Origin: Clostridium sp. BJN0013
GTDB taxonomy: Bacteria > Bacillota > Clostridia > Clostridiales > Clostridiaceae
Length of the DNA stretch: 64,000 nt
Direction: 5' to 3'
NCBI RefSeq assembly: GCF_040939125.1
Contig: NZ_CP162495.1
Coordinates: 3,410,001 to 3,474,000 of the forward strand
Shown here: positions 12,349 to 57,637 of the stretch, piece by piece
Layout: each line of letters starts with the position of its first letter
How positions within the stretch are numbered: the stretch's first letter is position 1
Notes under the pieces: generated by a model
Told to the model about the DNA's origin: nothing
What the model saw: only the letters and a program-made list of their open reading frames with translations
Databases searched by the model: none
Translations under genes and position numbers: made by a program

Positions 12349-12489
12349 GTTTCATCCAATGGCTACCTGCTAATCTCCAACTTCTCTAAAAGCATACGAT
12401 AAACACACCCTTTTATAAGTTCTTCTAAGTTCCAAAAGGAAAAGCATTGTTCACGAACAAACTCCATATAAAACTTTGAATTACTTGAT
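12349..12489 (-). repeat. Dispersed structured repeat, degenerate copy 1
   Basis: Read on the minus strand it starts ATCAAGTAATTCAAAG, continues TATGGAGTTTG...AATGCTTTTCC and GGAACTTAGAAGAACTTAT, and ends GGATGAAAC. These segments align in order with the better copies at 38690, 41772 and 54523. It is downstream of addA in the sense orientation. The remaining 220 bases up to addA are AT-rich with nothing else recognisable. Confidence 0.65.
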
Positions 12490-29107: not shown

Positions 29108-29147
29108 ATTAATCATCCTTTCCTAGGGTAATAATAATTTTATTAAG

Positions 29148-29275
29148 TTTTCCTTAAATTCAAATAAAGGTTTTTTCCATTTAAACCTCAGAAGAATTTA
29201 TCCTTAGACACAACATCGCTTACCTCTACTTTAAAGAAAATGGAGGTTATTGCACTGGTAACCTTAGGATAAAAT
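29148..29275 (+). repeat. Dispersed structured repeat, copy 2a
   Basis: It aligns with the better copies from TTCCATTTAAACCTCAGAAG through ATTTATCC to the terminal CCTTAGGATAAAAT. The 5' hairpin is shortened. The TTATCC/GGATAA closing stem is kept, and the internal hairpin is CCTC/GAGG here. It lies just upstream of pepD, in the opposite orientation to that gene. Confidence 0.65.
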
Positions 29276-29355: not shown

Positions 29356-29455
29356 ATCAAGTAATTTTTAGGTCCAGGTGGAGTTTACTCATTAAGAATG
29401 CCTTTTTCCATCTAGCCTTAGAAAAACTTATAAAGAGGTGTTCTTTAGATAAATC
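29356..29455 (+). repeat. Dispersed structured repeat, partial copy 2b
   Basis: It starts ATCAAGTAATTTTTAGGTCC and has AGGTGGAGTTTACTC...CCATCTAGCCTTAGAAAAACTTAT, a clear match to the 5' half of the family. The 3' branched domain is replaced or eroded. It follows copy 2a by 80 bases in the same orientation. Confidence 0.7.
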
Positions 29456-29565
29456 CTTAATTGGAGCATTTGACATAAAATATAAATATATCTAAAATAT
29501 AATTGTATAATATATGAAAAAACAATTTAAAATATCCAAACACTTTATTTAAATGAGGTATACAA

Positions 29566-30444: not shown

Positions 30445-30476
30445 TAGTATTATACCATCTTAAGCATATTTTCCTA

Positions 30477-30600
30477 AATGATTCTTAGATTAAAGTGAAA
30501 TTTTCTCATAAGGAATGATTTTCTTAGAAGAACTTATTTAGGCGCGTAACAACTCCTATACCTCACTTTGATTTTGTATCTGAAGATATGTTAATTTTAT
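30477..30600 (+). repeat. Dispersed structured repeat, degenerate copy 3
   Basis: AAATGATTCTTAGATTAAAG, CTCATAAGGAATGATTTTC and TTAGAAGAACTTATTTAGG follow the family consensus in order, with drift in the 3' half. It is 32 bases after the stop of the EamA gene, in the sense orientation and ahead of the palindrome at 30641. Confidence 0.5.
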
Positions 30601-30640
30601 TTTTATCTACAAAACTAATCTCAACAGATTTTTACTTGTA

Positions 30641-30676: not shown

Positions 30677-30719
30677 CTTTTTACCCGAATTTTTATAAAT
30701 TTTATCTACTATATCAAAT

Positions 30720-30776
30720 TACACAAATTTCACATTACTATGTCATATCATAGTCATAATCCTTAATTATAATTTG
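30720..30776 (+). promoter_or_regulatory. Conserved promoter/operator block of secreted-protein gene A
   Basis: TTACACAAATTTCACATTAC, TATCATAGTCATAAT and TTAATTATAATTT match blocks at the same distance upstream of genes at 35934 and 39611 and of the remnant at 33050. ACACA/TCACAT repeats spaced about 11 bases are compatible with an OmpR-family regulator; TATAAT is the likely -10. Confidence 0.6.
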
Positions 30777-30853
30777 TATTGAAAAGAAACTTAAATAAAA
30801 GAAAGACTTAAAAAACATTACTGTATAATAAAAAATTTTAGGAGGTATTAGAA

Positions 30854-31270
30854 ATGTTAAAAACAAGATACAAATTACTTTCAGCTTTAGTACTTGCAGC
30901 ACCACTGCTAGTAAATACAGGGGTTGCTACAACGGTACAAGCATCTTCTGTTAATAATGCAAAGGCCAGTATAGTTTACAAATCTTATTATTCTTTTGAA
31001 AACTTTGAAACTAAATTAGATGGATTAGTAGCATCAGGAACTATAAGTCCAAGTCAGGAAAATATAATATTGAACCTATATTATAATAATAAAATAACAA
31101 CCAGAGAAACTTTTAAGGCTCAATTAGATGCTTTAGTTGCAGCAGGAACTATAACACAAAATCAAGCAGTGTCTATATTAAATGCATTTAGTGGTTGGGG
31201 GCCTAGTTGGCAAATACCGGCACATAATAATCAGACTCATAATATAAAACCACATAATCCCTCTAAATAA
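30854..31270 (+). CDS. Small secreted helical-repeat protein A (DUF2680-like)
   Basis: 138 residues. A signal peptide (about residues 1-30, ending TTVQAS) is followed by two similar segments of about 30 residues: ENFETKLDGLVASGTISPSQ and ETFKAQLDALVAAGTITQNQ, each with L-D-x-L-V-x-x-G-T-I-[ST]. The pattern resembles DUF2680 proteins of clostridia. The tail (SGWGPSWQIPAHNNQTHNIK) is rich in aromatic residues, His and Asn. It is nearly identical to the gene at 35934. An AGGAGG site precedes the ATG. Function is unknown; it is presumably exported and controlled by the neighbouring response regulator. Confidence 0.85.
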   Translation: MLKTRYKLLSALVLAAPLLVNTGVATTVQASSVNNAKASIVYKSYYSFENFETKLDGLVASGTISPSQENIILNLYYNNKITTRETFKAQLDALVAAGTITQNQAVSILNAFSGWGPSWQIPAHNNQTHNIKPHNPSK

Positions 31271-31336
31271 AGTTTATTAAATTTAAAAAATTTTAAGTAA
31301 ATATATAAACTTTAGTCAAAGGAAAATTATGCTTTT

Positions 31337-31376
31337 AGTTAAAAATGCACTTTATGAATAGGTGCATTTTTAACTC
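31337..31376. terminator. Terminator after secreted-protein gene A
   Basis: AGTTAAAAATGCAC and GTGCATTTTTAACT form a perfect 14-base stem 65 bases after the stop codon. Confidence 0.88.
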
Positions 31377-31690
31377 TAATAATTCTTTATCTTTTTTGAT
31401 CTCTAATCTTTCTTTAATTGACGTGACATCTTGACCACATTCTCAGTATTTTTTTGCCTGTAAATTTACCAATAATTTATTCATTTCTTAGTTTGTAACT
31501 TTATAACTTTTGTATTCTTGTACTATCCCAACCATTGTATCAATTTTATTTTTATATTCCTAGTCTAACGCTTTAATATTATCATATTTTAAAATTTCAA
31601 TCTTAGTTTGTAAATCCTTTAATTGTTTTTTGATTTTTCTAGTATATTAATACCAAATGCCAAACCAGCTATTTTTATAACTCCCTTCAC
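31375..31690 (-). pseudogene. Degenerate coiled-coil protein gene
   Basis: On the minus strand a start-like MKGVIKIAGLAFGINILEKS frame, after a one-base shift, continues as KKQLKDLQTKIEILKYDN, YKNKIDTMVGIVQEYKSYK, MNKLLVNLQAKK and TSIKERLEIKKDKELLELK. Several single stop codons (TAG, TAA, TGA) interrupt it. The heptad pattern and unbroken frame between the stops suggest a decayed coiled-coil protein. No family is recognised. Confidence 0.5.
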
Positions 31691-31991
31691 GTTTCACACC
31701 AAGTCAAATAAAGTGTTGTTTAAAAGAAGAAAAAAGAATCAAATTGGGAAAGGAATTGTAAAGAACGATTAAAATTATTATCTTCTTTGCTATAATAACA
31801 AATGACAAAAATAACTGCATATTCCGTATATATAATAAAAGAAGCAATTAACCTAACCAAAATGATATTTCCCAAAATACAAATGCGTATTAACATACGC
31901 ATCTTGTGAATAAAATATCAGCACGCTGATAACTAACAATTTTAGTGTTTAACAAAAAACTTTTGAACACCTAGCTATTAATGATTTTGTC

Positions 31992-32678
31992 TTAAGTATC
32001 TTTAGGGTTAAAAACCAACTTATATCCATATCCATATACCGTTTCTATAGTTAATTTACTTAATTTTTTCCTGAGTCTTCTTATTGTATCATCTATAACT
32101 CTATCAGAACCAAAATAGTTAATACCCCAAACATTTGTCAAAATTTGTTCTCTTAAAATCAAACTATTCTTATTTTCAGCAAGATAGCTTAATAATTTAA
32201 ATTCCTTATTAGTAAGTCTGAGTTCTTCACCTTTAAATAAAACCATTCTTTGTTTTTTATTAATGAAATATTCTCCAATTTGTATGTTTAAATTTTGTGT
32301 TTCATTATCAGTACCATAAATTTTTGCCATAAGGTTATTGATTCGTATAATTAACTCCCTGGGTAAAAATGGTTTTGGTAAATAGTCATCACTGCCAAGT
32401 TCCAACCCCACCACTCTATCAAATTCCTCATTTCTTGCGGACATAAATATAACAGGTGTATTTTTGTTATTTTGTTTTATACATTTAATTAATTCATATC
32501 CATTTATATCCGGAAGCATTATATCTAGTATCCAAAGATCTGGCATGTCTTTTATCCTGTTTTTCGCACAACTTCCATCAGAAAAGGTAGTTACATCATA
32601 GCCCTCATTTTTAATATATTTTTCAAGTAAAATATTTAAATTATATTCATCTTCAACTAAATATATTTTTTTAGCCAA
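31992..32678 (-). CDS. OmpR-family response regulator, copy 1 (no adjacent kinase)
   Basis: About 228 residues. The receiver domain (1-120) has the acidic pair in YLVEDEYN, phosphoacceptor Asp in LWILDIMLPDINGYE, FMSARN and the lysine in LPKPF. A winged-helix DNA-binding domain follows (about 125-225), with LTNKEFKLLSYLAENKN and DDTIRRLRKKL. I place the start at TTG 32678, six bases after GAGGTG; the GTG at 32687 is inside that site. It is nearly identical to the regulator at 36647. No histidine kinase follows, only a short relic. Confidence 0.93.
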   Translation of the reverse strand: MAKKIYLVEDEYNLNILLEKYIKNEGYDVTTFSDGSCAKNRIKDMPDLWILDIMLPDINGYELIKCIKQNNKNTPVIFMSARNEEFDRVVGLELGSDDYLPKPFLPRELIIRINNLMAKIYGTDNETQNLNIQIGEYFINKKQRMVLFKGEELRLTNKEFKLLSYLAENKNSLILREQILTNVWGINYFGSDRVIDDTIRRLRKKLSKLTIETVYGYGYKLVFNPKDT

Positions 32679-32860
32679 CTCTATCACCTCAACTTAAATC
32701 AGCATTATAGTTGAGTAAAATTCTAAGGTCTTTATTTTAATAAATTCATAAGATTTATAAAAAGTAATTTTTATTATTAAAATGTACAACTAGAATTTCT
32801 ATATATTCAAATTTTTTACATTACGACAATCACGTGATTAATGATTGTATGGTCATCTAT

Positions 32861-32900
32861 AAAAAGTTAGAGAGAAACCTTTGACTTCTCTCCGATTTTT
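32861..32900 (-). terminator. Hairpin between secreted-protein remnant and response regulator 1
   Basis: On the minus strand GGAGAGAAGTC and GGTTTCTCTCTAAC form a stem followed by TTTTTA. It corresponds in position to the terminator at 36422 between gene B and regulator 2. Confidence 0.6.
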
Positions 32901-32925
32901 CATAAAATATCATTTATCGAGATAC

Positions 32926-33050
32926 TTATTTAGATACTTTGGTATTATTACTGCTATCACATACATGTACAGTTATGACAATCTTTGTATTTACTAACAG
33001 TGGTGATGCAAGTATTAAAGCTGAAATAATTTGCATTTCATTTTTAATAT
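32926..33050 (-). pseudogene. 5' remnant of a secreted-protein gene (relative of gene at 39036-39611)
   Basis: About 125 bases match the first 40 codons of gene C, including the signal-peptide region and the CDSSNNTKVS segment. The position of the ATG now reads ATA and the rest of the gene is missing. Its promoter block (33060-33150) is still nearly identical to that of gene C. It occupies the same place ahead of regulator 1 as gene B does ahead of regulator 2. Confidence 0.8.
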
Positions 33051-33059
33051 TTTTGATCC

Positions 33060-33155
33060 CTCTTAAATTTTTTATTGTTATTTAATATTATAACTAAAAA
33101 TTATAGTTATAGTATCAAATAGTAATGTGAACTTTATGTGATCTATAAATCAAGA
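33060..33155 (-). promoter_or_regulatory. Conserved promoter/operator block of the remnant at 32926-33050
   Basis: On the minus strand ATCACATAAAGTTCACAT, CTATTTGATACTATAAC and TTTTTAGTTATAATAT are almost base for base those upstream of gene C. TCACAT occurs twice, 11 bases apart. Confidence 0.6.
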
Positions 33156-33182
33156 ACATAGTTTCTATCTATATATAATAAT

Positions 33183-33400
33183 TCATTCTCTTGTAAATAT
33201 ATCTTTTACAGTTGCAAGGTATAGCCAGCCTTCATGTGTACCAATATAACTGATGTCAGTCACCCACACAGAATTTGGACTTTTAACTTTAAAACCTTGA
33301 TTTAAAAGATTTTCAGCTACCGGAAGTTTATAAGCGGAGTATGTAGTTGCCTTGAATTTTCTTTTCCTTTAAATCTTTACAAAGAAGATATACCAATGTG
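33183..33400 (-). pseudogene. IS3-family (IS150-like) transposase fragment
   Basis: On the minus strand an open stretch of about 58 codons reads KFKATTYSAYKLPVAENLLN, QGFKVKSPNSVWVTDISYI and GTHEGWLYLATVKDIFTRE and then stops. WVTDISYI carries the first aspartate of the DDE site. Upstream coding sequence is frameshifted and the rest of the integrase core is missing. No intact terminal inverted repeats are evident. Confidence 0.85.
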
Positions 33401-33616
33401 ATGCCATGCGTTTTATTAAAAAACTTAAAGTATTGGATACAATAAAATCTACAATTGATACATTAAAACTTAGAAATATAATTATCAATCGTTTAAATTT
33501 TCCTGTAAATACTTACTATAATAAAATAATGAAATATGAAAGATTTCTAAAAGCATGCCCTAGAATAATGATTGTAAATTTAGAAATTATAAATCAAAAT
33601 ATTAGAGGTGTAGTAA

Positions 33617-33724
33617 ATGATAAAATCTATAAAATCAAAATTGCATTTAAAAATATATTCTAAAATTGATCTTAATAAGGGTACTAAAAATTATATTAAA
33701 AAGATAGAAAAAATATATACCTAA
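33617..33724 (+). CDS. Small cationic peptide of 35 residues, unknown
   Basis: The frame MIKSIKSKLHLKIYSKIDL... has 11 lysines and no cysteine or acidic cluster, and ends KKIEKIYT. The ATG follows GAGGTG by six bases, a better ribosome site than the overlapping longer frame at 33406-33663 has. It ends 36 bases before yidC and is probably cotranscribed. The position recalls rpmH/rnpA ahead of yidC in ordinary genomes, but the sequence is not L34. It could be a membrane-active peptide or a relic. Confidence 0.45.
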   Translation: MIKSIKSKLHLKIYSKIDLNKGTKNYIKKIEKIYT

Positions 33725-33760
33725 TAACAATATTAGAAAAGATAAGAAAGGATAACTATT

Positions 33761-34426
33761 ATGTTTGATTTTATTGCATATCCTACAGGGCATATTTTAA
33801 GGTTCATGTATGAAGTATTATCATTTAAAAATTACGGAATTGCCATTATTCTGTTGACAGTTATTATAAGAACATTACTGCTTCCACTATATATAAAGCA
33901 GTATAGATCAACCTCAAAAATTAGCGAAATTCAGCCGAAAATAAAAAAGATTCAGGAAAAATATAAAAATGATAGTGAAAAGTTAAATCAGCATATGATT
34001 GAACTGTATAAGGAAAATAACATAAATCCGGCAGAAGGATGTCTTCCACTATTACTACAAATACCTATTTTATTTTCTCTTTATTACGTTGTATCCCAGC
34101 CTCTAAAATATATGTTTGAAATAAATTCATCCATAATTGACAAATTATTCAATACTATACCTCATAACATGATTACTATAAAGAATATGCTTAATACATC
34201 TGAAAATAAAATGCAAGATTCTATTCAGAAAAATATGCTTTTATTATCGCCAATCATGACTGGATTTATTTCATTTCAGGTACCTGCAGGCATGGGACTT
34301 TACTGGATAATAAGCAATATATATCAAATATTTCAGCAGATGTTTATGAACAAATTTATTATAAAAAAAGAGCCAAATTTAAATGTAAAATATAATAATA
34401 AAGTTAAAAGGAGGACTTTTTTATGA
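33761..34426 (+). CDS. yidC: YidC/Oxa1-family membrane protein insertase (accessory paralogue)
   Basis: 221 residues with about five hydrophobic segments. The conserved first helix contains the essential arginine (LTVIIRTLLLPLYIKQYRST). The cytoplasmic loop KISEIQPKIKKIQEKYKND and the NPAEGCLPLLLQIPILFSLY segment are typical. Helix VPAGMGLYWIISNIYQIFQQ ends the core, followed by a basic tail. It lies outside the rnpA locus next to a decayed radical-SAM gene, so it is likely a specialised second insertase. Confidence 0.9.
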   Translation: MFDFIAYPTGHILRFMYEVLSFKNYGIAIILLTVIIRTLLLPLYIKQYRSTSKISEIQPKIKKIQEKYKNDSEKLNQHMIELYKENNINPAEGCLPLLLQIPILFSLYYVVSQPLKYMFEINSSIIDKLFNTIPHNMITIKNMLNTSENKMQDSIQKNMLLLSPIMTGFISFQVPAGMGLYWIISNIYQIFQQMFMNKFIIKKEPNLNVKYNNKVKRRTFL

Positions 34427-34760
34427 AATTTGATTTAGACAATTCTAAAAGAAAATTAAAAGAAACCGCAATAAGAACCGGCTTTCAAATAATTAATAAA
34501 AATCCAGAAAAAGATGTAAATAAATTATTTGAGCTTGCTGAAAAGACAAGTAGAGATGAATTCACAAAGAGCAAAATTATAAGTATAAAAAAATACTACA
34601 ATGAAATGCCATCAGTAAAAGAATATATCGAAAATATATTAAAAAATACAAATTGGTGCTTCAGTGGCGGTATCAAATAAGAATATAAAAACTGTTACTT
34701 CAGATGAGTTTATAGATATGTCAGTTGAAAATGGGACGAATATGTCCGACGGTTAAAAGA
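34423..34760 (+). pseudogene. Radical-SAM protein, truncated and frameshifted
   Basis: The first 85 codons (MKFDLDNSKRKLKETAIRTG ... KSKIISIKKYYNEMPSVKEY) look like the helical N-terminal segment that precedes the core of a family of clostridial radical-SAM proteins. The frame then stops. In a shifted frame GASVAVSNKNIKTVTSDEF and IDMSVENGTN resembles the C-terminal part of the same family. The CxxxCxxC core is absent, so an internal deletion is likely. The start overlaps the yidC stop. Family assignment comes from remembered sequence patterns and is tentative. Confidence 0.55.
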
Positions 34761-34801
34761 GTATCCAACTTCAATTTAAAAAAAGGTACTACAGAAAGTG
34801 A

Positions 34802-35071
34802 AAGAACAGTATATTTAATAGAATATTTCAAAGAAATTCAGAATCCTTGAAAAAACTTCTTAAAAATCTCTTTGATGGGCTAACTAAATTAATTGAAAAG
34901 TATATATTAAATAATTTTATAAATCATGAAGAACTAAAGACATATTCTTCAATTTCATTATCTAAGTTGATATTGGGTACACTTTTTAGAACATCCGTTC
35001 AAATGATGTTAAGTGATGAAAAAAAAGATTACATGAATACACTGTCTACATTAAAATTAATACTTATTTAA
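34802..35071 (+). pseudogene. C-terminal part of a TetR-like regulator
   Basis: After a stop codon an open frame reads FNRIFQRNSESLKKLLKNLF, GLTKLIEKYILNN and SKLILGTLFRTSVQMMLSDE, ending NTLSTLKLILI. This looks like the ligand-binding half of a TetR-type regulator. No helix-turn-helix domain precedes it. A TTG at 34847 could start a 74-residue remnant but has no good ribosome site. Confidence 0.5.
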
Positions 35072-35132
35072 AATCAATCTTAGGTGCAGATTTGTTTTTG
35101 ACATAAAAGAAATGAATTTGTAGAAAAATAGA

Positions 35133-35363
35133 AGATCTTATTACTCTTTTGCAAATTTTAAATCTAAACTAGATGCTTTAGTTGCATCAGGGACTATAAC
35201 ACAAAGTCAAGCAGTGTCTATACTAAATACATTTAGTGGTTGGGGTTCTAGTTGGAAAATACCAGCTCCATCTAAAGACTCACATAATAACAAAAAAATA
35301 CTTGATAAGACAAACAATACTACTTCGTCATCTAATGTAGCTGGACAAAATAATGTTCATTAA
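35133..35363 (+). pseudogene. 3' remnant of a secreted-protein gene
   Basis: RSYYSFANFKSKLDALVASG, TITQSQAVSILNTFSGWGSS and WKIPAPSKDSHNN match the second repeat and tail of genes A and B. The signal peptide and first repeat are missing and no start codon is present. The tail extends differently, ending SSSNVAGQNNVH. Between 35370 and 35890 I see only a hairpin terminator (35467-35487) and no gene. Confidence 0.8.
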
Positions 35364-35466
35364 ACAAATTAAAAATTGATTACATTTATAAAACAATACC
35401 ACATCGGCAAAAATAAGATATTGTTGTGTTAAAAATTAAAGTATTTCTTAAATTGTAAATGAGCTG

Positions 35467-35500
35467 TTGCATAATTAAATTATGCAATAATTCATTTTTT
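35467..35500 (+). terminator. Hairpin after the secreted-protein remnant
   Basis: TTGCATAAT and ATTATGCAA form a perfect stem with a three-base loop, followed by TAATTCATTTTTT. Confidence 0.7.
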
Positions 35501-35807
35501 ATATAAATTCAGAAATAGAAGAAGATTACTATCAGATATCAGTCAATATTTTGGTGTATTTTTCTTTATTGAATTTATTCAGTTGTATGTTGGCTACTTC
35601 ACAGAGGCAAGGAAGCTTCTTGATCCAACCTTAATTTTAGTATAAAAGAGTTGGAGAGCTACACATAAATTACGAATTACAGATAAAATATTTATAAATT
35701 AAAAATACTTACTTAAATCATAAGTGAAAAATTAAATAAACATTTTTATTCTTTTGTAAACTTACTCCAGATACAAGAATGCAAGTTTTTACGGGTTGAA
35801 CTATAAA

Positions 35808-35866
35808 TTACACAAACTTCACATAACTATTTGATACTATGCCCACAATCATTAGTTATAATTTTT
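35808..35866 (+). promoter_or_regulatory. Conserved promoter/operator block of secreted-protein gene B
   Basis: TTACACAAACTTCACATAAC, TATTTGATACTATGC and ATTAGTTATAATTT match the blocks upstream of genes A and C. The match stands out because the flanking sequence differs between the loci. Confidence 0.65.
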
Positions 35867-35933
35867 TAAAAGAAACAATTAAATAAAACAATTCATCACA
35901 TATTATGTGGTAAAAAATTAGGAGGTATTAGAA

Positions 35934-36350
35934 ATGTTAAAAATGAAATACAAATTACTTTCAGCTTTAATACTTGCAGCGCCCCTACTAGTAAATACAG
36001 GGATTGCTACAACGGTACAAGCATCTTCTGTTAATAATGCAAAGACCAGTATAGTTTATAAATCTTATTATTCTTTTGAAAACTTTGAAACTAAATTAGA
36101 TGGATTAGTAACATCAGGAACTATAAGTCCAAGCCAGGAAAATATAATATTGAACCTATATTATAATAATAAAATAACAACCAGAGAAACTTTTAAGGCT
36201 CAATTAGATGCTTTAGTTGCAGCAGGAACTATAACACAAAATCAAGCAGTGTCTATATTAAATGCATTTAGTGGTTGGGGGCCTAGTTGGCAAATACCGG
36301 CACATAATAATCAGACTCATAATATAAAACCACATAATCCCTCTAAATAA
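35934..36350 (+). CDS. Small secreted helical-repeat protein B (near-identical to A)
   Basis: 138 residues that differ from gene A at only about five positions (for example MLKMKYKL for MLKTRYKL and LVTSG for LVASG). The signal peptide, two L-D-x-L-V repeats and tail are the same. The 3' flank is identical to that of gene A for about 50 bases and then diverges, which marks a recent duplication boundary. It is followed by a terminator and then the response regulator and kinase on the same strand. Confidence 0.87.
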   Translation: MLKMKYKLLSALILAAPLLVNTGIATTVQASSVNNAKTSIVYKSYYSFENFETKLDGLVTSGTISPSQENIILNLYYNNKITTRETFKAQLDALVAAGTITQNQAVSILNAFSGWGPSWQIPAHNNQTHNIKPHNPSK

Positions 36351-36421
36351 AGTTTATTAAATTTAAAAAATTTTAAGTAAATATATAAACTTTAGTCAAA
36401 TAATATTTTGTTAAATATAAC

Positions 36422-36478
36422 ACATAAAAAATTAGGGGGAAGTTAATAAAAAAACTTTTCTCTAATTTTTATGTATAA
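36422..36478 (+). terminator. Terminator after secreted-protein gene B
   Basis: ACATAAAAAATTAG and CTAATTTTTATGT form a long stem around a variable loop. Confidence 0.75.
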
Positions 36479-36606
36479 CCATATAATTCTAATTATGTGA
36501 TTAATCCTACGTAAAAAAATTTGAGTATAGAGGAATATCTGTATGGTTTAATAAAAGTCACCTATTATAAGTATTATGAACCTATTAGAATAAAAGCCTT
36601 AGAATT

Positions 36607-36640
36607 TTGCTCAACTATAATACTAATTTAAGTTGAGGTG
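36607..36640 (+). promoter_or_regulatory. Promoter and inverted repeat ahead of response regulator 2
   Basis: CTCAACTATAATACTAA contains a TATAAT -10, and CTCAACT is repeated inverted as AAGTTGAG just before the ribosome site. The same arrangement is conserved ahead of regulator 1 (about 32685-32720, minus strand). Confidence 0.5.
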
Positions 36641-36646
36641 ATGGAA

Positions 36647-37333
36647 TTGTCTAAAAAGATATATTTGGTTGAGGATGAATATAACTTAAACATTTTACTT
36701 GAGAAGTACCTTAAAAATGAGGGCTATGATGTAACTACTTTTTCTGATGGAAGTTGTGCGAAAAACAGGATAAAAGATATGCCAGATCTTTGGATACTAG
36801 ATATAATGCTTCCAGATATAAATGGATATGCATTAATTAAATGCATAAAACAAAACAACAAAAATACACCTGTTATATTTATATCCGCAAGAAATGAAGA
36901 ATTTGACAGAGTGGTGGGGTTGGAGCTCGGCAGTGATGATTATTTACCAAAACCATTTTTGCCCAGGGAATTAGTTATACGGACCAATAACCTTATTGCA
37001 AAAATTTATGGTACTGATAATGAAACACAAAATTTAAACATACAAATTGGAGAATATTTCATTAACAAGAAACAAAGAATAGTTTTATTCAAAGGCAAAG
37101 AACTCAGACTCACCAATAAAGAATTTGAATTATTAAGCTATCTTGCTGAAAATAAGAATAGTTTGATCTTAAGAGAACAAATTTTGACAAATATTTGGGG
37201 TAATAACTATTTTGGTTCTAACCGGGTAGTAGATGATACTATAAGAAGGCTTAGAAAAAAAGTAGATAAGTTAACCATAGAGACAATATACGGATATGGT
37301 TATAAATTGGTTAGCAGCCATGAAAATATTTAA
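36647..37333 (+). CDS. OmpR-family response regulator, copy 2
   Basis: About 228 residues. The receiver has YLVEDEYN, phosphoacceptor Asp in LWILDIMLPDINGYA, the conserved lysine in LPKPF, and a winged-helix domain with LTNKEFELLSYLAENKN. The TTG at 36647 follows GAGGTG by six bases; a GTG at 36638 is part of that site. It overlaps the start region of the histidine kinase, so the pair is coupled. It is over 90% identical by eye to the regulator at 31992. Its likely targets are the secreted-protein genes around it. Confidence 0.94.
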   Translation: MSKKIYLVEDEYNLNILLEKYLKNEGYDVTTFSDGSCAKNRIKDMPDLWILDIMLPDINGYALIKCIKQNNKNTPVIFISARNEEFDRVVGLELGSDDYLPKPFLPRELVIRTNNLIAKIYGTDNETQNLNIQIGEYFINKKQRIVLFKGKELRLTNKEFELLSYLAENKNSLILREQILTNIWGNNYFGSNRVVDDTIRRLRKKVDKLTIETIYGYGYKLVSSHENI

Positions 37334-38687
37334 GGCAGAATCATTAATGATTAGAATATGGGTAGTATTTACAATCGTAACTCTTACAATAATTTGCTGC
37401 ATTTCATTTCTATATTTAGTGACTTTTAGAGTTTTTGATGAAAATGCTAAGATTGAAGATTTAAAAACGGCTCATGAAATATTATTAAAAAATAATATTT
37501 TAAATCAACCCTTAAAGTTTGATAAATTAAGAAATCTCACTAACATGCAAAATTTGATTGTTGATATAGATAAAAATAAAGTAATAATGATAGATGTACA
37601 TTTCCCTCATGATAAATCACATTTACCAGAAGACTATAGAAAAAATGAAGAAAAAAAATGGTTAGCAGGCTTTATTAAATATATAGAAAAAGATGAGAAA
37701 CAGTTTAAAAAATACCATAATAATGTTAAATTCCTTTTTATAATAAGTCCAATAAAAAGTCAAAATTCCGAAAAAGCATATTTGATCACCTATATGCCAT
37801 ATTTTTTAGATAAAAGTATACTTTATAAAGCTACCCTTACAGGTATTATATTTATCTTTATAGCTTTTTTTACTTCAAAACTTGTTGCAGGATACATCTC
37901 AAAACCACTTAAAGAATTAGAAGATTATACTAAGAAAATAGCTAATAAACATTGGGGAGAGCCAATTAAAATAAGAAGTAATGATGAAATTGGAAGCCTT
38001 GCAAATTCTATGAATGTGATGCAAAAAAAATTAAAGTATGCTGAAGAAAGTGAAAAGCTATTTTTTCAAAGTATATCCCATGATTTAAAAACACCAGTTA
38101 TGGTTATCATGAGTCATGCTGAAGCAATCATAGAAGGTATGTATATAGATTCTGTTGAAAAAACAGCTGAAATAATAAAAGATGAAGCTATAAGTCTTGA
38201 AGAAAAAATCAAACAAATATTATATTTAAATACCCTAGACTATATGTTAGAAAATAATACAGAAAATAAAAATATGAATTTAGAAGATGTTCTTAACAAA
38301 ATAATACACAGGTTTGAAACATTTAACAACAACATTAAATGGGATCTAAATATTAAAAAAAGTATCATTTGGGGCAATAGAGAAAAAGTAATAATTTCTA
38401 TAAAAAATATACTAGACAATGCACTAAGATATGCAAAAACTACTATAAAAATAACGCTAAAAGAGGAAAATAATTTTGCTGTTCTTGAAATTTATAACGA
38501 TGGAAATACTATTAGAAATAGTGATATAGAACGCATATTTGATAGCATGTACAAAGATAAAAAAGGGAATTTCGGTCTTGGACTTGCTATATCAAAGAAA
38601 ATAATTAACTTTTACAGAGGAGACATTAAAGCAGTAAATAGATCAAACGGTGTAAGCTTTATAATTAAATATCCAAATTTATGCTAA
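37320..38687 (+). CDS. Sensor histidine kinase
   Basis: About 455 residues. The N-terminal helix (VVFTIVTLTIICCISFLYLV), an extracytoplasmic sensor loop of about 130 residues, and a second helix (about 170-190) precede a HAMP domain (YISKPLKELEDYTKKIANKH). HisKA has ISHDLKTPVMVIMSHAEAI. The HATPase_c domain shows NILDNALRYAKT and GLGLAISKKI. Starts at 37296, 37320 and 37344 are possible; 37320 avoids the deepest overlap with the regulator. It is the only kinase for two regulator copies in this island. Confidence 0.93.
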   Translation: MKIFKAESLMIRIWVVFTIVTLTIICCISFLYLVTFRVFDENAKIEDLKTAHEILLKNNILNQPLKFDKLRNLTNMQNLIVDIDKNKVIMIDVHFPHDKSHLPEDYRKNEEKKWLAGFIKYIEKDEKQFKKYHNNVKFLFIISPIKSQNSEKAYLITYMPYFLDKSILYKATLTGIIFIFIAFFTSKLVAGYISKPLKELEDYTKKIANKHWGEPIKIRSNDEIGSLANSMNVMQKKLKYAEESEKLFFQSISHDLKTPVMVIMSHAEAIIEGMYIDSVEKTAEIIKDEAISLEEKIKQILYLNTLDYMLENNTENKNMNLEDVLNKIIHRFETFNNNIKWDLNIKKSIIWGNREKVIISIKNILDNALRYAKTTIKITLKEENNFAVLEIYNDGNTIRNSDIERIFDSMYKDKKGNFGLGLAISKKIINFYRGDIKAVNRSNGVSFIIKYPNLC

Positions 38688-38689
38688 AC

Positions 38690-38838
38690 ATCAAGTGATT
38701 CTTGGGTTCAGGTAGAGCTTATGAGAAATGCTCTTCTCCATCTGAACGTTAGAAAAACTTATCCATGCGCGTTATCTGTGCTTATCTCCCACTTTGAAAA
38801 AAATGAGAGTATTAGCTAATTACCGCGTTCGGATAAAT
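38690..38838 (+). repeat. Dispersed structured repeat, copy 4 (well preserved)
   Basis: It begins ATCAAGTGATTCTTGGGTTC and ends GTTCGGATAAAT. A 5' hairpin pairs GTTCAG with CTGAAC. The 3' domain is closed by TTATCC (38759-38764) and GGATAA (38831-38836), extended by GCG/CGC, and contains an inner CTC/GAG hairpin. It begins two bases after the kinase stop codon and ends at the terminator at 38837, so it lies in the 3' untranslated region. Confidence 0.85.
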
Positions 38839-38888
38839 TGTAGGCATATATTTATCTTTATTCAAATACATGTCTACAATATTTTTTA
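38837..38888 (+). terminator. Terminator of the regulator-kinase operon
   Basis: ATTGTAGGCATATATTT pairs with AAATACATGTCTACAAT with few mismatches, followed by ATTTTTTA. The dispersed repeat separates it from the kinase gene. Confidence 0.75.
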
Positions 38889-39035
38889 TAGTTCAACAAA
38901 ACTATAGACATTATCAATATAGTCTTAAAATATAGTTTAGTTATAGTTATAGATTGGTTAATCATTAAAATCCGCTAAATTCCATCTAAAACTTCCTAGG
39001 TTGTCCAAACTATTTAGATACATTAAGAGATACAT

Positions 39036-39611
39036 TTATTTTGAATGCTTGTATCCTGAACAATTATTGGATGACCCACTATTGTGTCCTGAATTATTAG
39101 ATGCAGAATCATTATTTTTAAAATTATTAGATACATGTTTGTCATTTTTTGAATTATTATCTAATGTTGGTGACGGTATTTCAAAAGTAGGCTGCCAGAT
39201 AGTAAATAAATTTAATATAGATACTGCTTGACTCTGTGTCATAGTTCCCACTGCAACTAAAGCATCTAATTGAGCTTCAAAAGTTTCAAGCGTGATTTTA
39301 CCGTCATAATATAAATTTAATATTATTGTCTCCTGAGCTTGCGTTATAGTTCCTGCTGTTGCTAAAGTATCTAATTTAGCTTTAAAGTTTTCGAAAGAAA
39401 CATATGATTTATAAATTATATTTGAGCTATTATGTTTAAAAGCATTTTCGTCAAATATATTAGACGAACCTGTATTACGGAATACTACATTAGATACTTT
39501 GGTATTATTACTGCTGTCACATGCATGTACTGTTGTGGCAATCCCTGTATTTACTAGTAGTGGCGCTGCAAGCACTAAAGCTGAAAGTAATTTGTATTTC
39601 ATTTTTAACAT
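39036..39611 (-). CDS. Small secreted helical-repeat protein C (longer paralogue)
   Basis: 191 residues. The signal peptide matches A and B (LSALVLAAPLLVNTGIATTV), then a 40-residue insert with one cysteine and many Asn/Ser follows, then two repeats (ENFKAKLDTLATAGTITQAQ, ETFEAQLDALVAVGTMTQSQ). The tail is extended, rich in N, S, H and K, and ends NNCSGYKHSK. It is on the opposite strand to gene B. The ATG follows AAAGGGGACC. Probably exported; function unknown. Confidence 0.85.
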   Translation of the reverse strand: MLKMKYKLLSALVLAAPLLVNTGIATTVHACDSSNNTKVSNVVFRNTGSSNIFDENAFKHNSSNIIYKSYVSFENFKAKLDTLATAGTITQAQETIILNLYYDGKITLETFEAQLDALVAVGTMTQSQAVSILNLFTIWQPTFEIPSPTLDNNSKNDKHVSNNFKNNDSASNNSGHNSGSSNNCSGYKHSK

Positions 39612-39651
39612 TTTTGGTCCCCTTTAAATTTTTATTGATATTTGTTACTAT

Positions 39652-39718
39652 TTGATATTATAACTAAAAATTATAGTTATAGTATCAAATAGCAATGTGA
39701 ACTTTATGTGATTTATAA
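39652..39718 (-). promoter_or_regulatory. Conserved promoter/operator block of secreted-protein gene C
   Basis: On the minus strand ATCACATAAAGTTCACATTG, TATTTGATACTATAAC and TTTTTAGTTATAATATC. TCACAT occurs twice with an 11-base period, the pattern usual for OmpR-type binding. TTGATACTATAACTA and TTAGTTATAATATCAA also form an inverted repeat over the promoter. Confidence 0.65.
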
Positions 39719-39724
39719 AGAAGT

Positions 39725-41208: not shown

Positions 41209-41787
41209 GTGCTTTTCTTTTTATATTTATCAGGAATATTAAGTATTTTATTAGGCTCATTGTTATTTAGAAGACAAAACAGAAAATTAAAAAATAAAAA
41301 ATTTAACAAAAAACAACTGTTAGAATATTGGATAAAAAGAATGTTTGTAAATATAATTGTAATGTGCATATTGTGTATATTTTTATTAGTTATTGTTCCA
41401 CTTTTAATATGGCTTATATCCCCTAAAGAAGTAGGTATTATGGACAAGATCACTGAAACTAAAAATTTATCTCCAATTTCAGCTTCTAATAAGAATTATA
41501 CAAAACAAATAATAAAAAATAATATTAAAATTTACACTGTAAATATAGGAAATGCTAAAGAGCCAAATCTTATAGATTTTGAAAAGGATTCTGTAGAAAT
41601 AGTATCTACTAAAAAAGAAAGTCCTAAATACGAAAAAATAGCTAGATATAAAATGACAAAACTAAAAGGTGATAACATAATATCATCTGCTGTAAATGAT
41701 ATATATGCTAATATATACACTCAATATGATGAAGGAAAATTTATAGAAAATAAAGTGAAAATATTTATACCATCAAGTGGCTCTTAG
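41209..41787 (+). CDS. Membrane-anchored protein of unknown function, end formed by the dispersed repeat
   Basis: 192 residues. Two hydrophobic helices (about 2-18 and 45-70) flank a basic loop (RRQNRKLKNKKFNKKQ). An external domain of about 120 residues follows, with no recognised family. GTG start behind AGGGGGG. The dispersed repeat begins at 41772 inside the frame: the last residues SSGS and the TAG stop are supplied by the repeat. The natural C-terminus may therefore have been longer. Confidence 0.75.
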   Translation: MLFFLYLSGILSILLGSLLFRRQNRKLKNKKFNKKQLLEYWIKRMFVNIIVMCILCIFLLVIVPLLIWLISPKEVGIMDKITETKNLSPISASNKNYTKQIIKNNIKIYTVNIGNAKEPNLIDFEKDSVEIVSTKKESPKYEKIARYKMTKLKGDNIISSAVNDIYANIYTQYDEGKFIENKVKIFIPSSGS

Positions 41788-41927
41788 CTTCAGGTGGAGT
41801 TTGCTTATAAGAAATGCTTTTCTCCATCTGCTGAACCTTAGAAGAACTTATCCGAGCACGTAGCAGTGCTTATCTTCCACTTTGGAGAGGCTGGGAGTAT
41901 TTGCTAATTACCGTATTCGGATAAAAT
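41772..41927 (+). repeat. Dispersed structured repeat, copy 5 (well preserved)
   Basis: It begins ATCAAGTGGCTCTTAGCTTC and ends TATTCGGATAAAAT. The 5' hairpin pairs TTCAGGTGGAG with CTCCATCTG. The 3' domain is closed by TTATCC/GGATAA, extended by ACG/CGT where copy 4 has GCG/CGC (a compensatory change), with TAGCA/TGCTA and CTTCCA/TGGGAG inside. Confidence 0.88.
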
Positions 41928-51696: not shown

Positions 51697-51796
51697 ATTT
51701 ATCCAAACACAACAATTAGCTAATATTTCCATATTCTTCACAGTGGGAGAAAAGCATTCTCATAAGTAAACTCCACCTTAACCTAAGAATCACTTT
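51697..51796 (-). repeat. Dispersed structured repeat, copy 6 with internal deletion
   Basis: Minus strand: AAGTGATTCTTAGG...GGTGGAGTTTACTTATGAGA and ATGCTTTTCTCC join directly to CACTGTGAAG...TATTAGCTAATTG and end GTTTGGATAAAT. Compared with copies 4, 5 and 7, about 55 bases between the two CTCC segments are missing. Confidence 0.75.
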
Positions 51797-51891
51797 ATTT
51801 TACATAATGATCCACATGATCATTTTAAACCCAATATATCCATCAATTTAATAAGGATATATTATAAAAATGCTGTTAAAATAACAACTAT

Positions 51892-52018
51892 AAAACAAGC
51901 CTAAACTTCCAAAACTGGAATGAAGTGCGGGGGATAACAATATTTGAGGTGAATCTTTTTATTAAAAAGTAGGACAATCCCTCTCCGAACCTGTCAACTA
52001 ACCTCGTAGGCTAATTAG
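51892..52018 (+). promoter_or_regulatory. c-di-AMP (ydaO/yuaA) riboswitch
   Basis: The ydaO-type core is visible: GCGGGGGATAACAAT, GAGGTGAAT, AGGACAATCCCTCTCCGAAC and CTGTCAACTAACCTCGTAGG. It directly precedes the ribosome site (AGGGAGGA) of a cell-wall hydrolase gene, the usual target class. c-di-AMP binding is expected to turn the gene off. Confidence 0.9.
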
Positions 52019-52033
52019 GGAGGATATCTATTT

Positions 52034-52795
52034 ATGAATTTCAAAAAAATCAGAACACTACTATTTGCATTAACTTTTTCTATGTTGTCTTTTACACAGG
52101 TATATGCTGCTAATTATACAGTAAAGTCAGGAGATTCTCTATTTAAAATAAGTATACTATTTAAAACCGACGTAGACACCATTATAAAAAATAATAATCT
52201 AAAAGGCAGCGAGATATATCCAAATCAAGTTTTATATGTGGATTCTAAAACATATACTGTAAAACCTTCAGATACCCTTTATTTAATAGCAAAAAAATAC
52301 GGCATATCTCTTAGCACACTAATTGCGGCTAACAGCAATGTGGACAAGTATATTTATCCAAGTGAAGTATTAAACATACCTGCAGGCCGAATTTTTAAAA
52401 GTACAAGCTCCTTAGATCCTATAGTACCCTACAGTGAAAGTGACTTAGATTTACTGGCCAGATTGGTAACTGCTGAAGCTGAAGGAGAAGTTTACAAGGC
52501 CAAAGTAGCTGTAGCTGCTGTAGTATTAAACAGAGTTCAAAGTTCAAAATTTCCATCTACTATAAAAGATGTAATATATGAAGTATCGGGAGGTTATTAT
52601 CAATTTACTCCTGTATATAATGGCTGGATAAACAAGTCCGCTTCCGAAGATTCAAAAAATGCTGCTTATGAAGCACTCTATGGTTCCGATCCAACAAATG
52701 GTGCATTATATTACTTTGATGATAGTACAACAAATACCTGGCTCTGGTCAAAACCCATTGCTTTAAGAGTTGGTAAAATGGTATTTGTATATTAG
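52034..52795 (+). CDS. LysM (two) and SleB-like cell wall hydrolase
   Basis: 253 residues. A signal peptide (about 1-25, ending VYA) is followed by two LysM repeats: YTVKSGDSLFKISILFKTDV and YTVKPSDTLYLIAKKYGIS. The C-terminal domain (about 140-253) is the SleB/CwlJ hydrolase: LLARLVTAEAEGEVYKAKVA, VAAVVLNRVQSSKFPSTIKD and GALYYFDDSTT. It cuts peptidoglycan, possibly during growth or germination. It is controlled by the upstream c-di-AMP riboswitch. Confidence 0.95.
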   Translation: MNFKKIRTLLFALTFSMLSFTQVYAANYTVKSGDSLFKISILFKTDVDTIIKNNNLKGSEIYPNQVLYVDSKTYTVKPSDTLYLIAKKYGISLSTLIAANSNVDKYIYPSEVLNIPAGRIFKSTSSLDPIVPYSESDLDLLARLVTAEAEGEVYKAKVAVAAVVLNRVQSSKFPSTIKDVIYEVSGGYYQFTPVYNGWINKSASEDSKNAAYEALYGSDPTNGALYYFDDSTTNTWLWSKPIALRVGKMVFVY

Positions 52796-53542: not shown

Positions 53543-54499
53543 CTATTCCACCTCCCATGTTACATTTTTTGAAGAAAGATAATTACATATTTGTTCCTTA
53601 TCTTCTTGGTTTATATTTATCACTAGGCTTCCCAGTACATTATCTCGAAATCTCTCAAGTTTTCCCCATACTATGGAAAATTTTATATTTAAATCTATAG
53701 CCATAGAAGTTATTAAATTATCCTGACTTATTTCCTTTGGGAAAAATATTCTTATGTTCATTCCTTTTTCCGGCAATAAATTTTCACTTCCCAACAATTT
53801 TTTCAAATATTCGCCTGGCCTTAGGAATACTTCTTCCACATCTCCTTCTACCTTTATCTCCCCGCTGTCAATAATTGCCACCTTGTTACATATTTCTTTT
53901 ATCACTTCCATTTGATGTGTTACTACTACTATGGTTAGTTCAAATTCCTTATTTATTTTCTTTAAGAGTTCAAGTATAGATTTGGTAGTATTAGGATCTA
54001 AGGCTGAAGTAGCTTCATCGCAGAGTAATATACTGGGATTTAAAGCAAGTGCTCTTGCAATAGCCACTCTTTGTTTTTGCCCTCCACTTAATTGCCTTGG
54101 CATGCTCTCGGCCTTATCCTCAAGTGCTACTAATTTTAATAATTCCCCTACTCTAGCTTTTATTTTCTTTTTATCATATCCCCATACCTCCAGAGGAAGT
54201 GATATATTATCATATACACTTTTCCTATTTAGTAAATTGAAATTTTGAAATATCATACCTAAATTTTTCCTAAAAACTCTTATTTCTTTTCCTTTTAAAT
54301 CTTTTACCTCTTTGTCCATTATCTTTATACTTCCAGTATCATAGGTTTCAAGGCCATTTAAACATCTGAGCAGTGTAGATTTCCCCGCTCCGCTCTGTCC
54401 TACTATTCCAAATATTTCACCTTTTTTTATATTAAGGTTTATATTTTTAATTACAACTTTATTATCAAAACTCTTACCAACATTATTAATATTTATCAA
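53543..54499 (-). CDS. metN: Methionine ABC transporter ATP-binding protein MetN
   Basis: 318 residues. Walker A VGQSGAGKSTLLRCLNGLE, signature LSGGQKQRVAIARAL and Walker B ILLCDEATSALDP are complete. A C-terminal NIL domain (about 250-318) that senses methionine is present. The start is TTG behind GGAGGGAAGGTGA. It is preceded by a SAM-I riboswitch, with a dispersed repeat copy inserted between them. Confidence 0.95.
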   Translation of the reverse strand: MININNVGKSFDNKVVIKNINLNIKKGEIFGIVGQSGAGKSTLLRCLNGLETYDTGSIKIMDKEVKDLKGKEIRVFRKNLGMIFQNFNLLNRKSVYDNISLPLEVWGYDKKKIKARVGELLKLVALEDKAESMPRQLSGGQKQRVAIARALALNPSILLCDEATSALDPNTTKSILELLKKINKEFELTIVVVTHQMEVIKEICNKVAIIDSGEIKVEGDVEEVFLRPGEYLKKLLGSENLLPEKGMNIRIFFPKEISQDNLITSMAIDLNIKFSIVWGKLERFRDNVLGSLVININQEDKEQICNYLSSKNVTWEVE

Positions 54500-54522: not shown

Positions 54523-54675
54523 ATCAAGTAATTCAGAGGTTCAATTGGAGTTTGCTATAGAAAAATGCTTTTCTCCATCTGAACCTTAGAATAACTTATC
54601 CAGACGCATAGCAGTACTTATCTCCCACTTTGAAAAGGATGGGAGTATTAGCTAATTCCAGCGTTGGGATAAAAT
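54523..54675 (+). repeat. Dispersed structured repeat, copy 7, in the metN leader
   Basis: It begins ATCAAGTAATTCAGAGGTTC and ends GTTGGGATAAAAT. The 5' hairpin pairs GGTTCAATTGGAG with CTCCATCTGAACC. Inside the 3' domain CTCCCA/TGGGAG is a perfect stem and ACGC/GCGT extends the TTATCC/GGATAA closing stem. It lies antisense in the metN leader, two bases from the metN ribosome site. Confidence 0.87.
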
Positions 54676-54728: not shown

Positions 54729-54828
54729 TCTCTCATCTTTCAGCCTTCGCTGCAGGACTTGGCACCATTATACAACGTATTGGTTGCCGGGCTTCAATGG
54801 GCCTGTTCCCTCCACCTCTCTTGATAAG
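54729..54828 (-). promoter_or_regulatory. SAM-I (S-box) riboswitch controlling metNI
   Basis: Minus strand: CTTATCAAGAGAGGTGGAGG, GAACAGGCCC...GAAGCCCGGCAACC, GGTGCCAAGTCCTGCAG and GCGAAGGCTGAAAGATGAGAG. All S-box conserved blocks are present. SAM binding is expected to favour the terminator at 54688 and reduce methionine uptake. Confidence 0.97.
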
Positions 54829-54931
54829 TTCAAGATTCATATTCAATTTACGGATTTAATTATATCAATTTAATCCCATAATGTCAATGGTTACATTGTA
54901 CATATCCCAGCTAAAAGATGACGGAGGAATT

Positions 54932-56808: not shown

Positions 56809-57534
56809 CTAAACACTTGCATTATAATATGCTTCAAAATTAGCGGTATTGTCTCCCGTATCATAATACAGTCTTGTATATTGCATATAATACTCCGTAA
56901 CTAAAACTGTAGCAGTGCTTGTACCTAAAGTAACAAATCCTGCACCATCATTAATAAAATACTCTGAACTACTAGTTGGAGAAATTTGAAGTGCCACTGT
57001 AATGGTATTTGTATTGTCATTATTTCTAATATAATATGAATACATCTTTTGTTGTGAAGTATCCTCCTGTAGTACTGAGCCTTCACCTATACCTGTATTT
57101 ACGATAATATTATCTGTAGTAAACAAAACTCCACTAGTTATTGAACTTATGTTTCCAGCTACTGTCACCGTATTTCCTATATCTACTGTACCTGCTACTG
57201 TCACCGTATTTCCTATATCTACTGTTCCTGTTACTGTCACTGTATTTCCTACATCCACCGTCCCTGCTACTGTCACTGTATTTCCTACATCCACCGTCCC
57301 TGCTACTGTCACTGTATTTCCTACATCCACCGTCCCTGCTACTGTCACTGTATTCCCTATATCCACCGTTCCTGTTACTGTCACTGTATTCCCTACATCC
57401 ACTATCCCTGTCATCATTAAGTTTCCTGAATTATCCATTTGTAGTGCTTCAATCTGGTTTGTGCTGATATTATATGCATACATTTGAGTTTTCAATTGCT
57501 CTGTCACTCTATTAAATACTAAATTATTGGGCAT
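56809..57534 (-). CDS. Repeat protein with DUF6385-like C-terminus
   Basis: About 241 residues. Seven copies of a 12-residue repeat, V-D-[VI]-G-N-T-V-T-V-[AT]-G-T, fill about residues 45-130. The C-terminal 100 residues end with YYMQYTRLYYDTGDNTANFE, a DUF6385-like pattern. The repeats contain four Thr per unit and no Cys, good O-glycosylation sites for the neighbouring glycosyltransferase (inference). The ATG at 57534 follows GGAG. It may be exported or a spore surface protein; no signal peptide is present. Confidence 0.72.
   Translation of the reverse strand: MPNNLVFNRVTEQLKTQMYAYNISTNQIEALQMDNSGNLMMTGIVDVGNTVTVTGTVDIGNTVTVAGTVDVGNTVTVAGTVDVGNTVTVAGTVDVGNTVTVTGTVDIGNTVTVAGTVDIGNTVTVAGNISSITSGVLFTTDNIIVNTGIGEGSVLQEDTSQQKMYSYYIRNNDNTNTITVALQISPTSSSEYFINDGAGFVTLGTSTATVLVTEYYMQYTRLYYDTGDNTANFEAYYNASV
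57150..57415 (-). repeat. In-frame 36-bp tandem repeat
   Basis: About seven units of 36 bp (ATTTCCTACATCCACCG... on the plus strand), each encoding the 12-residue repeat of the protein at 56809-57534. Several central units are identical, so recent expansion or contraction is likely. Confidence 0.9.
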
Positions 57535-57637
57535 AACCTTCATCTCCATTTTACTATTAGAATATATTTAAAATGTTCTAAACCTAATAATTATAGTATT
57601 CCTTATTTTAGTAATTGTGATTTTATATTAAGTATAT

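Follow-up and report, generated by a model that had tools for sequence, protein, structure and literature searches.

REPINs are short, intergenic, hairpin-forming and non-autonomous repeats, and bcr1 of the Bacillus cereus group is said, in a 2004 paper, to be about 155 bp long with TTTAT at each end. Among transposons of single-stranded DNA, IS608 has a two-guide scheme, and its TnpA reads hairpins that carry an extrahelical base. In Haloquadratum, palindrome-associated transposable elements (PATEs) are described as lacking inverted repeats, as bearing palindromes close to their ends that relate to IS605-type transposons, and as keeping a short target at their side; additional bases are reported in the empty strain, as are strain-specific insertions even where tnpA is broken, and strain-specific IS605-type insertions where all the IS200-type genes of a strain are pseudogenes (PMC3119063). 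In bacteria, the title of the 2004 paper cited in PMC6542083 presents bcr1 as specific to the B. cereus group, and group A IStrons are described as inserting downstream of TTGAT, ATTAT or TTTAT (PMC4227781).

The repeat considered here is a short, gene-less and strongly folding piece of DNA in Clostridium sp. BJN0013, scattered, mainly intergenic and usually beside TTTAT. The copy under study starts at position 38690 of the window, the whole stretch of 64,000 nt that was analysed, within a single-contig host genome of 4.10 Mb (G000; other genomes and loci are cited by G and L numbers). No publication describing it in Clostridium was found among the titles and abstract openings of the open-licence literature. 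From its ends, its fold and its filled and empty sites, we think it probable that the repeat is a non-autonomous, PATE-like transposable element of single-stranded DNA, of the IS200/IS605 (Y1 HUH) type.

Copies, anatomy and ends of the repeat

A blastn search of the host genome with the 38690 copy returned at least 40 copies, itself included (40 of 259 candidates were scored), and a covariance model, R1, was built on 30 copies, all from this genome. All eight dispersed copies that the first-pass annotation had listed in the window were recovered by R1 at E 9.5e-6 or better (Table 1). Three of these, 38690, 41772 and 54523, belong to the training set and match by construction, and the other five are independent. 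The three are intact (153-168 bits, 148-154 nt); the remaining five are truncated or decayed (37-73 bits). Over the whole genome R1 gave at least 150 matches, every one aligned over the full model, with 150 of 3095 first-look candidates scored. The 304 kb containing the window hold 25 copies or fragments at E 1e-4, which extrapolates to perhaps 340 genome-wide. Copies occur in both orientations and in unrelated gene contexts: 24 of the 25 have less than one quarter of their length inside ORFs of at least 80 codons, such ORFs making up 83% of the stretch, and the gene-end arrangements around them (8, 7, 5 and 5) reveal no preferred context. Of two copies previously placed in 3' untranslated regions, the one at 30473 does lie 28 nt past a stop codon, and the one at 29356 lies instead 87 nt upstream of a start codon; the 38690 copy is 2 nt downstream of a stop codon.

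Table 1. Features of the 38690 copy and the other copies in the window (positions of the window; R1, covariance model)
Feature	Position	Strand	Basis or remark
Complete element of ~150-nt type; ATCAAG...TTCGG in the orientation first described; transposon orientation is the - strand, CCGAAC...CACTTGAT	38690..38832	+	162 bits (R1 training copy, match 38690-38837); 39 other copies scored; ends placed from 134 distinct complete copies
5' domain, one long imperfect hairpin: outer stem AAGT...ACTT, inner stem TTCAG/CTGAA	38693..38760	+	right-end domain in transposon orientation
TTATCC, internal guide-like arm; pairs with GGATAA (38831-38836) at the target junction	38759..38764	+	phylum alignment
Inner hairpin CTCCCA...TGAGAG	38786..38809	+	bulged T on - strand in the Clostridium consensus form CTCCCAT(CTT..)AAGTGGGAG, as in the IS605 left-end hairpin
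Five-base target position TTTAT (ATAAA on +)	38833..38837	-	letters of other sites, 134 complete copies
Decayed copy	12351..12489	-	67 bits (R1)
Decayed copy, shortened 5' hairpin	29142..29273	+	67 bits (R1)
Decayed copy, 3' half nearly lost	29356..29478	+	73 bits (R1)
Strongly decayed copy	30473..30613	+	37 bits (R1)
Complete 150-type copy	41772..41925	+	R1; same site in G003 and G004 has a 200-type copy
Internally deleted copy	51698..51798	-	R1; both close relatives empty, keeping one ATAAA-like pentamer
Complete copy, including ATAAA target 54669-54673	54523..54673	+	R1; both close relatives empty, ATAAA alone there

The order of motifs first reported is correct. In the 150-type layout a long 5' hairpin is followed by a 3' domain closed by TTATCC/GGATAA, within which lies a CTCCCA/TGGGAG hairpin. 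There is also a 200-type: 32 of the at least 150 host matches listed measure 196-206 nt, and among 20 long copies fetched, 18 (200-206 nt) have the 5' domain enlarged by a complete additional arm, about 50 nt long and forming a hairpin of its own, and 2 (173 and 176 nt) have part of such an arm. Records of C. ljungdahlii and C. ragsdalei, as well as genomes further away, have a third type of about 134 nt (ATAAACAG... or ATCAACAG...). Clostridium sp. OS1-26 has versions that exceed the 200-type in length, at 218-219 nt (L133 1698-1915, L135 6092-6310), and these suggest additional modular arms.

The ends were read from 134 distinct complete copies, a copy being counted complete if its alignment came to within 3 positions of the profile ends. 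Exactly ATAAA stands at the target junction (TTTAT on the other strand) in 122 of them, and exactly ATCAA at the opposite end, likewise in 122. Beyond either junction nothing is conserved, the flanks being merely AT-rich, and the complete copies contain no terminal inverted repeats. In the 3' motif that had been taken as the end of the repeat, the last five letters, ATAAA, are target and not element at most readable sites. On the strand that begins with TTTAT, the element lies 3' of that pentamer and ends in TTGAT (TTTAT^CCG...CTTGAT^).

Several neighbours of the copies in the window deserve mention in their own right. The copy at 54523-54673 is flanked on one side by a SAM riboswitch (54730-54830, -) and on the other by the beginning of a gene for a MetN-like ABC ATPase (53543-54499, -), which scores under the curated MetN cut-off; a perfect TTGACA-17-TATAAT match lies upstream, at 54887-54859, and two close relatives are without the copy at this riboswitch leader. 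The internally deleted copy at 51698 precedes a c-di-AMP riboswitch (51888-52027) by about 90 nt, and a LysM/cell-wall-hydrolase gene follows the riboswitch (region 51698-52795). The first 16 bases of the 41772 copy supply the last codons and the stop of an ORF of 192 codons without Pfam match (41209-41787). Elsewhere, a tandem repeat of 36-bp period (57119-57446) lies inside an ORF with a DUF6385 domain (56809-57549, -), and the region 30700-39720 is duplicated and inverted, with 800-nt arms (31977-32776 and 36549-37348) that are 89% complementary and include two response-regulator genes, and with a small ORF in several copies (30854-31270, 35934-36350, part at 39036-39611). The repeat supplies the missing annotation for many intergenic regions, one riboswitch leader among them.

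Filled sites, empty sites and spread

Whether the repeat moves was read from collinear stretches of two relatives, G003 and G004, compared with the host. Both flanks were located in another genome for 36 of 53 copies; for 20 of these the counterpart is empty, 14 are occupied in every genome where they were located, and 2 are intermediate. The 20 come down to 18 distinct sites, and at 8 of them the empty form consists of the two flanks with ATAAA or a one-base variant between them. At 3 of the 18, other letters stand in at least one relative (GAAGA; AGTTA, at 38690 itself; ATCAA in G004 with ATAGA in G000), and of the remaining 7, two are not cleanly alignable and five were not read letter by letter. 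Three further clean empty sites belong to the window copies 54523 and 51697 and to a G078/G097 pair from another genus. In all, ATAAA or a one-base variant is found at 11 of 21 distinct empty sites, other letters at 3, and no clear reading at 7. Filled sites read ATCAAG...CGG-ATAAA (in full, ATCAAGTG...CGGATAAA), and from this comparison it follows that the element adjoins a pre-existing ATAAA and brings its own ATCAA. For 38690, where both empty relatives read AGTTA, the target is assigned from the other sites.

Single sites can also differ in the type of copy that they hold. At 41772 the host has a 150-type copy and both relatives a 200-type copy; at G000:3540634 the host has the 200-type and G004 the 150-type, with G003 empty. 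Where one site holds two types, the copies are not nearest relatives of one another. Given 859 intergenic TTTAT/ATAAA sites per 304 kb, it is not improbable that a site is used more than once. The first-pass annotation had left open a mobile element or a structured RNA; the evidence favours the former over a genic RNA, since there are many precise-ended empty sites, target-specific insertion, both orientations, unrelated contexts and near-identical copies at non-orthologous places. There is in addition a weak orientation bias: the TTTAT-first strand is on the lagging-strand template in 89, 88 or 92 of the 150 scored matches (p 0.027, 0.041 and 0.007), the figure depending on the terminus assumed, and the GC skew of the fetched loci flips sign near 2.0 Mb. 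This direction, towards the lagging-strand template, is known for IS608 and ISDra2 (PMC6006769).

R1 finds the repeat at E 1e-4 in 11 of 13 genomes of the genus, in two of these just once; besides the host with its at least 150 matches, G003 has 128, G004 148, G006 117 and G009 131. With 15 or 10 candidates scored per genome, relatives were found in 67 of 194 genomes drawn from the family (19 of 46 Clostridiaceae genera) and in 16 of 299 drawn from the phylum, the host's own included (12 of 215 genera). An exact 23-mer occurs in 46 stretches of named genomes, all Clostridium or Clostridiaceae. Species of different names can have almost the same copy at places that are not orthologous, as in C. 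peptidivorans L112 and Clostridium sp. BSD9I1 L116 (97.4% identical) or C. ljungdahlii L130 and C. muellerianum L134 (96.7%), and such identity, up to 97%, suggests recent horizontal movement. In records of phages, plasmids and viral contigs, searched partly by exact-pattern scans only, the repeat was not found. So far as the cited accounts go, TTTAT-flanked repeats of unexplained mobility have been described for one Bacillus group; here such a repeat is traced by structure through those 19 Clostridiaceae genera and 12 genera of the phylum draw.

A mobile element need not be moved by a transposase of the Y1 kind. A site-specific recombinase, or a DDE transposase making a 5-bp duplication whose left copy has drifted to ATCAA, would account for the similar pentamers at the two junctions, which are ATCAA on the left and ATAAA on the right in Clostridium (TTGAT on the right and TTTAT on the left of the TTTAT-first strand) and TTTAT at both ends in the members of G240, G473 and G078. 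It would account as well for the ATAAA on both sides of the window copy 51697 and of one G004 copy, and it agrees with the TTTAT motifs and the "site-specific recombination-like mechanism" described for bcr elements (PMC6542083) and with the several carriers that have no Y1_Tnp. However, the left pentamer is exactly ATCAA in 122 of the 134 complete Clostridium copies and ATAAA in only 2, while the other junction is ATAAA, so that ATCAA must be taken as encoded by the element. The marks of a classical DDE MITE, terminal inverted repeats and a target duplication, are both absent from the repeat, and a diverged member has a hairpin in common with IS605. We hold movement by such another enzyme to be unlikely, and movement by an IS200/IS605-type transposase to be more probable.

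Likeness to IS605, candidate enzymes and fold

The left end of a multi-copy IS605-type element in G002, whose TnpA is related to the solved ISHp608 TnpA (E 6e-25), contains CTCCTATCTTCTATAAGTGGGAG. The G240 member of the repeat has, at the corresponding place and on the same strand, CTCCCATCTTCTATAAGTGGGAG, which folds with one bulged T as the IS605 end does; the two agree at 24 of 25 bases, a score attained by 0 of 300 shuffles. The 38690 copy shows a weak likeness to three IS605 left ends: against these, 3, 6 and 34 of 300 shuffles do as well. The left end of a G204 IS605 with a TnpA of similar sequence gave no clear match to any of six members, and that of the host's IS200 gave no match. 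The right hairpin of the repeat has no T bulge, and IS605 right ends align with its left hairpin, not its right one. When 1.83 Mb of fetched DNA was scanned with a hairpin pattern, drawn after the likeness had been seen and allowed up to 2 mismatches, only 6 matches fell outside the repeat: five in IS605 left-end sequence (L214, L221, L229, L233 and L236) and one in what resembles a diverged member. The targets of the IS605s that bear the hairpin are different (TTAAC/TTGAC, with TTCAC as right end). IS608 finds its target through base pairs and is open to re-programming (PMC5934647), which would explain how one TnpA might move elements with another target. As a separate observation, an IS605-type tnpA in G379 (L294), with an IS608-like left hairpin judged by eye, adjoins what appears to be a diverged remnant of the repeat.

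Neither a cognate autonomous element nor a cognate transposase was found among the genomes examined, and the copy-rich carriers G004, G006, G015, G473, G301 and G324 gave no Y1_Tnp match; the enzyme could have been lost, be supplied transiently or be of another kind. Three candidate partners were considered and set aside. The host's IS200 copies insert after T runs and have ends that differ from those of the repeat; of the TnpB loci L046 and L047, the copy near L046 is outside the region shared with L047; and for a broken tnpA between two copies (L043), the homologue L042 has no copy in its fetched flanks. The host's IS200-type set (L031-L041) comprises nine nearly identical full-length copies and two truncated ones after T-rich runs, some of them following terminator-like hairpins (by eye) and two with an in-frame TAG.

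A chromosomal relative of the Y1 transposases could be the mover instead, which would make the repeat a REP/REPIN-like element mobilised by a RAYT. A hairpin-rich fold and mostly intergenic copies would be in keeping with this, a RAYT-like gene, P0001, directly adjoins a copy in G005 (its best NCBIfam model is REP_Tyr_transpos, at 71.4 bits under the 80-bit cut-off), and in G078 a copy lies about 0.1 kb upstream of another such gene. Yet G000, G003, G004 and G006, with at least 150, 128, 148 and 117 repeat matches, have no P0001 match at E 1e-15. Moreover, the repeat stands at only 2 of 30 RAYT loci examined, on one side only, the G078 locus being empty in G097, and 6 of the 30 have instead, within 330 nt, an exact CCCCAGGGG palindrome that is perhaps their own REP. 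Mobilisation by a RAYT is accordingly improbable. RAYT-like genes as such match in 97 of 194 family genomes, and 5 of the 30 loci read (L237-L266) hold a frame starting MASV(V/I)NSF.

The fold itself is conserved by compensatory changes. A covariation first proposed from one G:C pair that is A:T in a neighbouring copy holds on larger samples, 95 Clostridium copies and 30 sequences from across the phylum, although the structures tested were derived from the very sequences tested. The Clostridium set took 95 of the 106 150-type copies (142-158 nt) among the 134 distinct complete ones, leaving out 28 of the 200-type; 25 of 53 pairs and 101 cells changed on both sides were found, against 42 +/- 6 cells in shuffles (0 of 500 as many), and slid controls gave 35-73 cells, the paired share of cells being 37-55% in them and 90% in the structure itself. 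The phylum alignment, A3 (30 sequences hand-picked from those fetched, 29 distinct rows), gave 18 of 49 pairs and 86 cells against 26.4 shuffled (0 of 500), with 5-26 in slid controls. In that alignment the six TTATCC/GGATAA pairs (columns 79-84 with 157-162) are nearly invariant while the stems inside covary.

Within Clostridium, G-C pairs have decayed to G-U in 121 cases and to A-C in 139 (37 against 72 in the 5' domain, 84 against 67 in the 3' domain), and since the two routes are about equal, nothing overall indicates that single copies are maintained as RNAs. The simplest reading would be that the fold is maintained among source elements and decays neutrally after insertion. Compared with shuffled sequence, the + strand of 38690 has a far better fold as RNA (z -4.0), and a better one is also found for the - strand as DNA (z -3.7). 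The impression that the repeat belongs to no named family is borne out, inasmuch as no Rfam family matches at its gathering score; the best sub-threshold match over the 38690 copy is mir-248, at 22.7 bits against a 90-bit cut-off, and such Rfam matches as there were are unrelated or due to chance. The view that duplication has spread a structured RNA (cis-regulatory or small) which is retained for its function as RNA could draw on the compensatory changes across the phylum, the + strand fold, the slight excess of G-U in the 3' domain alone and the copies just past stop codons, but presence and absence at precise sites, a gene context without preference among 25 copies, wobble decay that shows no overall strand preference and in the 5' domain points to the other strand, the lack of an Rfam match and the comparable fold of the - strand leave it very little likelihood.

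Proposed mechanism and comparison with known systems

The preferred reading, a single-strand element of IS200/IS605 type without genes of its own, can be put as a scheme. In transposon orientation the element would run from TTTAT^CCGA through a left domain with the T-bulged hairpin, then GGATAAGT, then a right hairpin domain, to (CA)CTTGAT^. A TnpA supplied in trans would bind the folded single strand, and the internal GGATAA would pair with TTATCC, made up of the target and the first bases of the element, and in doing so select TTTAT. The same central stretch overlaps the AAGT predicted to pair with ACTT ahead of the right cleavage site. The enzyme would presumably cut 3' of TTTAT and 3' of TTGAT, excise the element precisely and reinsert it 3' of another TTTAT. 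This proposes a specific, testable enzyme class and guide; if it is right, the question of mobility becomes one for a binding and cleavage assay, and the natural compensatory variants become material for learning how single-strand transposases read hairpins and guides.

A wider idea, which we offer tentatively and would not put on the same footing, is that the repeat belongs to a phylum-wide superfamily of "self-guided" mini-transposons, each with its own TnpA-type hairpin and a central guide that aligns both ends and dictates TTTAT, movable by any resident or visiting TnpA with the right taste in hairpins, and with bcr1 as another branch. If true, one guide for both ends would be a simpler architecture than the two guides of IS608, and the kinship would explain the so far unexplained mobility of bcr1.

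Set against the known systems, the repeat resembles group A IStrons and ISDra2-like IS605 elements in what is described of their insertion, 3' of TTGAT, ATTAT or TTTAT (PMC4227781). Those elements, unlike the repeat, contain transposon genes (with a group I intron added in IStrons), and the 3' ends of group A IStrons are TCAG where the repeat has TTGAT. With the REPINs of RAYTs, as they are described, it has in common that it is short, intergenic, hairpin-forming and non-autonomous (PMC3116915); length, ends and target are different, and the repeat is abundant in genomes without a detectable P0001-like RAYT. The group A repeats bcr1-bcr3 of the B. cereus group are, by their descriptions, alike in being short (BCRs, 100-400 bp), in many chromosomal copies, MITE-like and of unexplained mobility, and in having a TTTAT motif (PMC6542083, PMC3446304); the bcr1 habit of TTTAT at the ends was found here on the left, with TTGAT on the right, in Clostridium, and on both sides in the three genomes named above. 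Going by these descriptions, bcr1 is the nearest named bacterial repeat.

PATEs share with IS200/IS605 and with the repeat the absence of inverted repeats, the near-terminal palindromes and a retained short target, as described (PMC3119063). Of the features that characterise a PATE, those found here are the lack of terminal inverted repeats and of a target duplication, a precise empty site, and insertion 3' of a short fixed target. Unlike the PATEs, the repeat is bacterial (Bacillota), has a compact fold of 134-200 nt with compensatory conservation over many genera and has a single central arm that pairs with the target stem, and its left hairpin alone is recognisably IS605-like, clearly so in some members only. 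By description, then, PATEs and bcr1 appear to be the closest named kinds of repeat.
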